NCBI GenBank assembly: GCA_937969445.1
Contig: CALBVZ010000091.1
Coordinates: forward strand, 1 to 40,157
Length of the DNA stretch: 40,157 bases
From: an uncultured Octadecabacter sp.
GTDB taxonomy: Bacteria; Pseudomonadota; Alphaproteobacteria; Rhodobacterales; Rhodobacteraceae
Direction: 5' to 3'
Below, piece by piece: positions 5,511 through 31,917 of the stretch. The notes beneath the pieces were generated by a model. The model saw only the letters and a program-made list of their open reading frames with translations, had not been told where the DNA came from and did no database searches. The position numbers and the translations under genes are program-made. Numbering within the stretch: position 1 is the stretch's first letter; every line of letters starts with the position of its first letter.

Positions 5511-5565
5511 GCAAAGTTTGTTCTTGCTTGAACAAACTTTGCCCCTATGTTCACGCCTGAACAAA
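5511..5565. promoter_or_regulatory. Two palindromic operator-like sites (GTTC-N6-GAAC)
   Basis: GCAAAGTTTGTTC-TTGCTT-GAACAAACTTTGC (5511-5542, perfect 13-bp arms) and TATGTTC-ACGCCT-GAACAAA (5546-5565), just upstream of the 5582 start. Confidence 0.75.
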
Positions 5566-5581: not shown

Positions 5582-7660
5582 ATGGCTATGTCGCCCACCA
5601 AAGCCACCTCCGAGCAGGAGGATCAAATGTTCCGCCTGCTGCGGCAGCTGGATGTCGCACCGGATGCGTCCCAGCGCGCGTTGGCGCAGGCGATTGGTGT
5701 ATCCTTGGGCCGCCTGAATGCTTTGTTAAAGCAAGCCACCGATGCGGGCCTTGTGAACATCGAAGACCGCAACGGCCCCGACAAACGCGCACGCCATACC
5801 TATGCGATTACCGCTCGTGGTGCAGGCGAAAAGAACCGCCTCACAACCCAATTTCTAACCCGCAAACTCGCCGAATATAACGCGCTGCACGCCGAACTTA
5901 CGGGCAGCACATCCGGCCTAACGCCTATTAGTAACAGGAATACCCTTATGGAACACAACCTCGCCCCTATCCCTGAGCTGTTTGTCTCTTACGAGTCCGC
6001 TCAGAAGCTGAAAGTCGAAGCCGCGGACCTCGTTAGCCACGACCTGACACCACGTCAGATCTGCGATCTGGAACTGCTGATGAACGGCGGCTTCAACCCA
6101 CTTAAGGGCTTCCTGACCGAGGCTGACTACGACGGCGTCGTCGACAACATGCGCCTGACAACGGGCGAACTTTGGCCAATGCCCATCACGCTCGACGTCT
6201 CCGAAGACTTCGCAGCATCACTGGAAATCGGCCAAGACATCGCCCTGCGCGACCAAGAAGGTGTGATCCTTGCGACCATGACGGTCACAGACAACTGGGT
6301 TCCAAACAAAGCCAAGGAAGCTGAAAAAGTCTTTGGCGCTGATGATGACGCGCACCCAGCTGTGAACTACCTGCACAACCAAGCTGGCAAAGTTTACCTT
6401 GGTGGCCCAGTGACAGGTATCCAACAGCCGGTTCACTATGATTTCCGCGCCCGTCGCGACACGCCTAACGAATTGCGTGCTTACTTCCGCAAGATGGGTT
6501 GGCGCAAAGTTGTTGCGTTCCAAACACGCAACCCGCTGCACCGCGCGCACCAAGAACTGACATTCCGCGCCGCACGCGAAGCACAGGCCAACCTGTTGAT
6601 CCACCCAGTTGTGGGCCTGACCAAGCCGGGCGACGTTGACCACTTCACACGTGTTCGCTGCTACGAGGCGGTTCTGGACAAATACCCACAGTCCACAACT
6701 TCCATGTCCCTGCTGAACCTTGCCATGCGTATGGCTGGCCCACGCGAAGCCGTTTGGCACGGTTTGATCCGTAAAAACCACGGCTGCACCCACTTCATCG
6801 TTGGCCGCGACCACGCTGGTCCGGGGTCCAACTCTGCTGGCGAAGACTTCTACGGTGCTTACGACGCACAAGACCTGTTCCGCGCCCACCAAGAAGAAAT
6901 GGGCATCGAAATGGTCGACTTCAAACACATGGTTTGGGTGGACGAACGCGCACAGTACGAAGCGATTGACGAGATCGAAGACAAAGATAAGGTCACGATC
7001 CTCAACATCTCTGGCACGGAACTGCGCCGCCGTTTGGCCGAAGGCCTGGAAATCCCTGAATGGTTCTCCTTCCCTGAAGTCGTGAAAGAACTGCGCCGCA
7101 CAAAGCCGCCACGCTCCAAGCAGGGTTTCACAGTGTTCTTCACTGGCTTCTCCGGCTCCGGCAAATCCACAATCGCCAACGCGTTGATGGTGAAACTGAT
7201 GGAAATGGGCGGTCGCCCTGTGACGCTTCTGGATGGTGATATCGTTCGCAAGAACCTGTCTTCCGAGCTGGGCTTTTCTAAAGAGCACCGCGATCTGAAC
7301 ATCCGTCGCATCGGTTACGTTGCATCCGAGATCACCAAGAACGGTGGTATCGCGATCTGTGCGCCAATCGCGCCATATGCAACAACCCGCCGCGCCGTTC
7401 GTGAGGACATCGAAGGCTTCGGTGCCTTCATTGAAGTCCACGTCGCAACCTCCATCGAGGAATGTGAACGCCGTGACCGCAAGGGCCTCTATAAGCTGGC
7501 GCGCGAGGGCAAGATCAAAGAATTCACAGGTATTTCAGACCCATACGACGTTCCTGTCGACCCCGAGCTTTCTGTGGAAACCGAAAACGTGGACGTAGAC
7601 AACTGCGCGCATCAGGTGATCCTGAAGCTGGAAAGCATGGGCTTGATCGCCGCGGAATAA
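5582..7660 (+). CDS. cysC/sat: Continuous ORF: N-terminal MarR/EPS-associated-type winged-helix regulator (about aa 1-113) joined in frame to bifunctional sulfate adenylyltransferase/adenylylsulfate kinase (from Met at 5948)
   Basis: N-part QEDQMFRLLRQLDVAPDASQRALAQAIGVSLGRLNALLKQA...RLTTQFLTRKLAEYNALHAEL; Sat part QTRNPLHRAHQELTFRAA; APS kinase P-loop GFSGSGKST; no stop between the parts in the supplied ORF. Confidence 0.9.
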   Translation: MAMSPTKATSEQEDQMFRLLRQLDVAPDASQRALAQAIGVSLGRLNALLKQATDAGLVNIEDRNGPDKRARHTYAITARGAGEKNRLTTQFLTRKLAEYNALHAELTGSTSGLTPISNRNTLMEHNLAPIPELFVSYESAQKLKVEAADLVSHDLTPRQICDLELLMNGGFNPLKGFLTEADYDGVVDNMRLTTGELWPMPITLDVSEDFAASLEIGQDIALRDQEGVILATMTVTDNWVPNKAKEAEKVFGADDDAHPAVNYLHNQAGKVYLGGPVTGIQQPVHYDFRARRDTPNELRAYFRKMGWRKVVAFQTRNPLHRAHQELTFRAAREAQANLLIHPVVGLTKPGDVDHFTRVRCYEAVLDKYPQSTTSMSLLNLAMRMAGPREAVWHGLIRKNHGCTHFIVGRDHAGPGSNSAGEDFYGAYDAQDLFRAHQEEMGIEMVDFKHMVWVDERAQYEAIDEIEDKDKVTILNISGTELRRRLAEGLEIPEWFSFPEVVKELRRTKPPRSKQGFTVFFTGFSGSGKSTIANALMVKLMEMGGRPVTLLDGDIVRKNLSSELGFSKEHRDLNIRRIGYVASEITKNGGIAICAPIAPYATTRRAVREDIEGFGAFIEVHVATSIEECERRDRKGLYKLAREGKIKEFTGISDPYDVPVDPELSVETENVDVDNCAHQVILKLESMGLIAAE

Positions 7661-15767: not shown

Positions 15768-16487
15768 TTATTGCAACCCGAACATCACGCCGCTCATGGT
15801 CAGGTCTTGGTCAAACTGCCCATCCGCCAAAAACGCCATCGCTTGGCGCATCACCAACGGATTGTTCATCATAAACGTGTGGGTCACCGGCAACGTCAGA
15901 TGATCGCGCATGCCGTCCAACCGCGTCGATTCCACCGAGACCTTCCCGTCATCAGCACCATCAATCAAACTGGAATAATACGCATTCAACGACCGATTTC
16001 CGGCAATAATACCCAGCTCATGCCCCGGCCACCCGAGGCTTAATGGCTCCCCATCCGTGGCAAGCTGCATGCCTGCCGGCCCATTAATCCACCCAAACGG
16101 CTCTAACTCTCCAAGAATATCAACAAGTTGCGATCCGTCATTTGGCGGCCCCAACATAACAACGCGCCCCATTAGCGTTGGACGCGCGTCGGCAAGGTAC
16201 ACGCGCACCAAAATGCCACCCATCGAATGGGTCACAAAATGCACCCTCCGATTGCCGCAACTTGCCACCGCTTGGGGAACGTTCTGCGCCACCAAGGTTT
16301 GAATATCCGCGCTGGTGGAGGGGTAGCCGTTGTTGACGACCATGTAGCCCTCAAGCTCCAACAACTCCTCAAGCGCAAGAAACGATGTCTCTGTGCGTGC
16401 CAACCCGTGCAGCAACACAACACAATCCTCAGCCACCGCCGCAAGCGGGGCGAAAACGAGCCAGAGCGTGATAAATAATCTTTTCAT
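15768..16487 (-). CDS. Alpha/beta hydrolase (lipase/PGAP1-like), exported
   Basis: [41 protein letters not shown]...[21 protein letters not shown]; signal peptide at 16487. Confidence 0.85.
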
Positions 16488-16513
16488 ATCCCCAACATAG
16501 GCGATCTCACAGG

Positions 16514-16560
16514 ATTGATAAGGTCTAGCTTGCCTGACCTTATCAATACAGGCCAAGCTA
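16514..16560 (+). promoter_or_regulatory. Two overlapping inverted repeats upstream of Nudix gene (candidate alternative RNA hairpins or overlapping operators)
   Basis: A: ATTGATAAGGTC (16514-16525)/GACCTTATCAAT (16536-16547); B: TAGCTTGCCTG (16526-16536)/CAGGCCAAGCTA (16549-16560, 1-nt bulge). Confidence 0.7.
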
Positions 16561-16565
16561 CGCCC

Positions 16566-17024
16566 ATGACACAATCCAAAGCACGCCCCGTCCGCATCGC
16601 AGCCCGCGCCATCATCCTGCACGACAACAAACTGCTGCTGGTCAACGCCTACAAAGGCCGCGGTGATTTGTGGTGCGCACCGGGTGGCGGCGCGGAAGCC
16701 CACCAAAGCCTTCCCGAAAACCTCGTGCGTGAGGTGATGGAAGAAACGGGGCTGACAGTTGCGGTCGGTGCCCCCTGCCTGATCAACGAGTTTCACGACC
16801 CAAATGGGACATTTCATCAGGTCGAAGTGTTCTTTCGCTGTACGCTTACGTCCGGCCAATTGGACGACACTTGGCAAGACCCCGAACACATCGTGAGCCT
16901 TCGCCGCTGGGCCACGCGGGATGAAATCACGAATCTAAAGGTGCGTCCGAAATCACTGGCAGCGGTGGCGTGGGGTGACGGGGATGTGTTGGTCTATGAT
17001 CCGTTAGAGGCGATATTACCGTAA
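16566..17024 (+). CDS. Nudix hydrolase
   Basis: [26 protein letters not shown] Nudix box. Confidence 0.92.
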
Positions 17025-17121: not shown

Positions 17122-18800
<1,679 letters not shown>

Positions 18801-31889: not shown

Positions 31890-31917
31890 GGCGAAAACGA
31901 TTACCATCGTTTTCGCC
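31890..31917 (-). terminator. Hairpin downstream of xylA
   Basis: GGCGAAAACGAT TACC ATCGTTTTCGCC perfect 12-bp stem, 15 bp past the xylA stop. Confidence 0.65.

Follow-up and report, generated by a model that had tools for sequence, protein, structure and literature searches.

Palindromic operators bound by dimeric bacterial regulators can overlie the -35 boxes where two promoters diverge. The element described here resembles such operators in being a 20-bp dyad with an A/T-rich centre, found at fixed positions before many target genes; it differs from them in that its palindrome, AGGTCAGGNWWNCCTGACCT, matched no regulator site found in a literature search. Leaderless starts of transcription are established in alphaproteobacteria, with 171 of them in Sinorhizobium meliloti (PMC3616915), where the spacing of -35 and -10 lets transcription begin at the A of an ATG and leaves no Shine-Dalgarno leader. 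The same arrangement is predicted here from sequence comparison only, and for both of the genes that flank a divergent region of 78 bp. A third system, CenR of Rhodobacter sphaeroides, has envelope or exported proteins among its targets (PMC9275681), as has the set of genes discussed below. Its sites, however, are direct repeats of the form TGA-N8-TGA, whereas the present element is an inverted repeat of another sequence, and CenR was rejected as the cognate regulator on this ground. Finally, natural template-switch (quasipalindrome-correction) mutations are known, in which a clustered change rewrites one arm as the reverse complement of an older one close by (PMC8794818). A change of this form is found at our locus, with the differences that it affects a putative operator and promoter rather than an RNA gene, and that one of its bases is untemplated.

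The window, that is, the whole stretch of 40,157 nt that was analysed, belongs to a fragmented Octadecabacter-like draft genome (Rhodobacteraceae; 178 contigs, 74% complete). An exported alpha/beta hydrolase (lipase-like) gene on the minus strand (15768 to 16487) and a stand-alone Nudix hydrolase gene on the plus strand (16566 to 17024) diverge there from an intergenic region of 78 bp (16488 to 16565). The initial annotation had recognized this layout, with a stand-alone Nudix gene starting at the ATG at 16566, and the annotation of the window bears it out. In the window sequence, the Nudix box of this gene has Gln in place of the first Glu of GX5E. The orthologous intergenic regions of the Octadecabacter genus and of other Rhodobacteraceae were compared.

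Two hairpins can be drawn in the intergenic region. Hairpin A, to which no strand is assigned, is a perfect 12-bp inverted repeat with a 10-nt spacer (16514 to 16547), ATTGATAAGGTC-TAGCTTGCCT-GACCTTATCAAT, with arms at 16514-16525 and 16536-16547 complementary at 12 of 12 positions and TAGCTTGCCT as the loop. Hairpin B, a potential structure of the plus strand (16526 to 16560), pairs TAGCTTGCCTG (16526-16536) with CAGGCCAAGCTA (16549-16560); it has a single bulged C and ends 5 nt before the ATG at 16566. Both had been proposed in exactly this form, and a check of the sequence agrees in every detail. Folded in isolation, a 61-nt segment adopts A (-19.3 kcal/mol, z -3.2) and a 113-nt segment adopts B (z -3.35). 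Inverted repeats of this kind (12 bp, perfect, loop of 3-15 nt) exceed chance: the window holds seven overlapping matches at five places, against 0-1 per block shuffle (n=20). Other perfect inverted repeats of at least 12 bp, at 17122-17152 (between the Nudix and groEL genes), 1718-1751 and 31890-31917, are probably terminators or operators. Yet another, of 13 bp, GCAAAGTTTGTTC-TTGCTT-GAACAAACTTTGC (5511-5542), stands about 40 bp upstream of a gene (5582-7660) that seems to encode an ATP sulfurylase/APS kinase carrying a winged-helix domain at its N terminus, and this repeat could be an autoregulatory operator.

Comparison brings out a constraint on distance. A -35-like CTTGC lies exactly 36 nt upstream of the Nudix ATG in 14 of 16 genus orthologues, and 37 nt upstream of it in the window and in genome G011. 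When ten divergent sequences are aligned on the ATG, T-35, C-32, C-12, A-11 and T-7 are invariant, and flanking columns, such as -61 to -54, are near random. This layout reads as a promoter with TTGCCT as its -35, a 17-bp spacer, a -10 that fits CANNNT and a start on the first base of the ATG. In the window, the candidate -35 element TTGCCT occupies 16530 to 16535 of the plus strand (-36 to -31, against -35 to -30 in relatives), in the loop of hairpin A, and the -10 element CAAGCT occupies 16554 to 16559 of the same strand (-12 to -7), in the 3' arm of hairpin B; the predicted mRNA would start, leaderless, at 16566 (plus strand). All ten genus sequences passed a joint test for a -35 and a -10 at the fixed distance that puts +1 on the A of the ATG, as did 13 of 72 orthologues from other Rhodobacteraceae (shuffle means of 0.03 and 0.16, respectively; 0-1 at slid positions). 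Beyond the genus the leaderless case appears partial, with only these 13 of 72 meeting the strict test. To be sure, a generic sigma-70 scan found no promoter in this region, because the hexamers are unlike the Escherichia coli consensus (CAAGCT is far from TATAAT), so that the case for a promoter rests on position and conservation.

On the lipase side, the motif CTATNT (CTATGT or CTATCT) precedes the ATG by about 7 nt, in Octadecabacter as well as many other genera, and CTTGC lies 44 nt from this ATG in 16 of 17 genomes. The conserved -10 ending about 7 nt from the ATG, as read by inspection of the sequences, argues for a second leaderless promoter. Its -10 would be TATGTT (16494 to 16499, minus strand; -12 to -7 of the lipase ATG), and a candidate -35, CTTATC, lies within the left arm of hairpin A (16517 to 16522, minus strand). 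A separate observation comes from G015 (L015), where the intergenic region carries an 11-bp tandem duplication (CTTGCCTAACC CTTGCCTGACC): one copy keeps 44 nt to the lipase and the other 36 nt to the Nudix gene, which fits two independent spacing constraints on the DNA.

The conserved block extends past the -35 as a dyad. This 20-bp palindrome, AGGTCNGGNWWNCCNGACCT, is located inside hairpin A; the window has it with one mismatch, as the putative operator AGGTCTAGCTTGCCTGACCT (16521 to 16540, no strand), and in G011 it is perfect (AGGTCAGGCTTGCCTGACCT). Across 19 genomes of the genus, the pattern AGGTCNGGNNNNCCNGACCT with at most one mismatch gave 58 sites, about 15 of them the Nudix locus itself, against 4 for the reversed control. 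The sites away from the Nudix locus are mostly intergenic, and the palindrome stands at constant distances before the same genes in several species: 85-87 nt upstream of a gene for an exported PPC-like protein (97 in G018), 98-99 nt upstream of a coiled-coil protein gene, 80 nt upstream of an L,D-transpeptidase gene, and at 61 and 48 nt from the two members of a divergent DUF2125-like and SDR gene pair. Further neighbours are a PfkB kinase gene with a divergent acyltransferase, a fasciclin protein gene and a nucleoside phosphorylase gene. About ten other gene groups (e.g. L218, L194, L185, L283 and L282) have the palindrome upstream at a conserved position. The labels DUF2125-like, coiled-coil and PPC are our own tentative reading of the sequences: Pfam gave no match for the first two proteins, and the PPC match was below the cut-off.

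Two further properties mark the set. Of the intergenic sites, 28 of 29 have A/T at each of the two centre positions, against 2-3 of 11 coding matches, and a profile that left the Nudix locus out of its training set picks up the sites of that locus at a genome-wide E of about 0.003-0.6 (only 0.12 for the window's own site). This recovery is the main independent evidence that the Nudix-locus dyad belongs to the putative operator set. In a family-wide scan, matches rose weakly above the reversed control, and for this reason we claim an operator within the genus only. One near copy, GGTAAGGCTTGCCTGACC, stands outside it in Actibacterium ureilyticum (L055), likewise at the 36-nt position (counted by eye). 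As a side observation, a conserved stretch that separates the 3' end of a LuxR-type gene from a convergent tsf (L353-L362, e.g. L355 from ~1156) contains a degenerate AGGTATGGTTTCCCTGACTG-type palindrome; the stretch could hold an unannotated small RNA gene, but Rfam gave no match near this site.

Natural losses are informative as well. In G007 the palindrome profile has no match genome-wide, and the PfkB gene stands without its palindrome. At the Nudix locus of this genome the arms of the dyad have decayed (AGGTGTCGCTTGCGCGATCA), with CTTGCG, CAGTCT and the 36-nt spacing retained, so that G007 separates the putative operator from the predicted promoter. In G006 the PPC and PfkB genes are present without palindromes, and downstream of its intact lipase only a broken remnant of the Nudix gene is left (L127). 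The dyad at the lipase is intact, which would suit a role for the lipase and yet calls for caution.

How should the two hairpins be understood? The initial annotation saw in them a translational switch, A and B competing in the 5' leader of the Nudix mRNA and B masking the ribosome-binding region. Both stems are present, and they fold better than shuffled sequence. The fixed 36-nt promoter geometry, however, predicts a leaderless mRNA: since transcription is predicted to start at the A of the ATG, neither hairpin would be part of the Nudix transcript, and the element, as judged indirectly from this geometry, would lie outside any leader. A transcription start downstream of 16514, which had been named in advance as the result that would speak against a switch, is what the comparative evidence predicts, with +1 at the ATG. 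The covariation analysis then proposed was carried out on an alignment of 14 genomes and gave none for either stem; pairing was found in 78.1% of cells for A and 81.2% for B, against 77.2% and 80.0% in shuffled alignments, with no clear excess of two-sided changes. Nor are the stems conserved as such: the inner AAGGTC/GACCTT pairs of A are kept across the genus, whereas its outer ATTGAT/ATCAAT pairing is found in the window genome only, and several pairs of B are disrupted in relatives. Moreover, the Nudix ATG has no Shine-Dalgarno-like sequence at the usual distance, and Rfam gave no match in the window. We rejected the RNA switch on the leaderless geometry and the lack of covariation, and find it hardly credible; the paired hairpins are very probably features of DNA, namely promoters and a palindrome. 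The fallback offered with the switch, two overlapping DNA operators, came closer: operator DNA in the divergent region is retained, but as one conserved 20-bp palindrome over two promoters rather than as two operators.

Two other explanations accept DNA and dispense with a regulator. The region might hold just two overlapping leaderless promoters, the symmetry of the dyad being an accident of -35 boxes that face away from each other. It is true that the candidate lipase -35 falls in the left arm and the Nudix -35 in the centre, and that G006 retains the dyad although two other sites are lost; against this stand the recurrence of the same 20-bp palindrome at conserved places elsewhere, the recovery of the Nudix locus by a profile built from those places, and the conservation of arm bases outside the hexamers, except in G007, which lost the whole set. 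We consider this reading unlikely. That the palindromes are hairpin terminators or small repeated elements is highly improbable. In many cases the flanking genes are divergent and a terminator would serve no purpose, the distance of the sites to start codons is constant in several species, and it is the sequence itself that is fixed, not merely its pairing, with no constant T-run. In its favour are the placing of some sites just past a gene end, as 22 nt after an ABC transporter gene, and the long perfect hairpin that G008 has after that gene.

The perfection of the arms has a history of its own. At 16543 to 16548 (plus strand), TCAATA replaces the CGCCG of the four nearest relatives, and this lineage-specific change completed the match of the right arm of hairpin A. 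All four already carry the left arm, either as ATTGAT or with one base different. Between the window and G002, five of six differences fall within six columns (P 0.0004). TCAAT is the reverse complement of the left arm, and the base that ends the cluster, at 16548, is the one without a template. The perfect 12-bp arms probably arose in this genome alone, when a single template-switch mutation extended the palindrome. The inserted base brings the Nudix spacer to 18 bp. An assembly artefact, such as a local inverted copy in a chimeric read, might give the same appearance, and the fragmentation and incompleteness of the draft, together with a private change that resembles a local inverted copy, speak for it. 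Yet the site lies well inside a 40-kb contig, flanked by intact genes, and natural changes of like form have been described, as mentioned above (PMC8794818), which makes an artefact very unlikely; if real, it would touch the outer arms only, and neither the operator nor the promoters. Elsewhere, after the ABC transporter gene, G008 and G004 (L149, L151) differ in a way that resembles this arm-perfecting, the palindrome being extended to a long perfect hairpin in one and present as the core only in its relative.

All in all, the element is likely to be an operator laid over the -35 boxes of two back-to-back leaderless promoters, and not leader RNA. The positions of its parts, their conservation and the recurrence of the palindrome come directly from the comparison of genomes. 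Two sigma-70-type promoters would share the 78 bp, one for the Nudix gene (plus strand; TTGCCT, CAAGCT, +1 at the ATG) and one for the lipase (minus strand; TATGTT, +1 at or beside its ATG), with AGGTCNGGNWWNCCNGACCT spanning the -35 region of both. Because it is found at fixed distances before other genes of the genus too, the palindrome is probably the operator of a dimeric factor, and a putative transcription factor of this kind would bind 16521-16540. We infer the leaderless start itself, the binding of a protein and the sign of regulation: a centre at -35.5 from the Nudix +1 suggests repression of that gene, and a centre at -43.5 from the lipase +1 suggests repression or class II activation. 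Hairpin B would be a by-product of mutually complementary -35 and -10 sequences.

As to the regulator, two more candidates were set aside. A LuxR-type quorum-sensing box does not fit, with no palindrome upstream of luxI/luxR and with G007 keeping LuxR and LuxI without sites; G006, for its part, has no LuxI and no autoinducer-binding LuxR. A MerR-type operator between -35 and -10 was rejected as well, the CCTG..CAGG dyad of the window not being retained in relatives (by eye). A broader proposal, to which we give an even chance, is that a putative regulator acts through AGGTCAGGNWWNCCTGACCT on a regulon of exported or envelope proteins, the PfkB kinase, the acyltransferase, the nucleoside phosphorylase, the lipase and the Nudix hydrolase, that a single operator governs the two leaderless promoters, and that in this lineage it grew to an inverted repeat of 34 bp through the template switch, which also altered the Nudix spacing.

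A general lesson is that what looks convincingly like a bistable RNA hairpin can turn out to be the DNA of a promoter, in which complementary -35 and -10 boxes make one stem and an operator dyad the other. An ordinary kind of thing, a promoter with an operator, takes the place of the proposed RNA switch, and the locus looks tied to an undescribed genus-wide regulon. The proposed regulon is testable, with a 20-bp putative operator that precedes some ten groups of genes in a single marine genus, and G007, which has no detectable sites, together with G006, where sites are lost at two tested targets, offers a route to the regulator through comparison of gene content.
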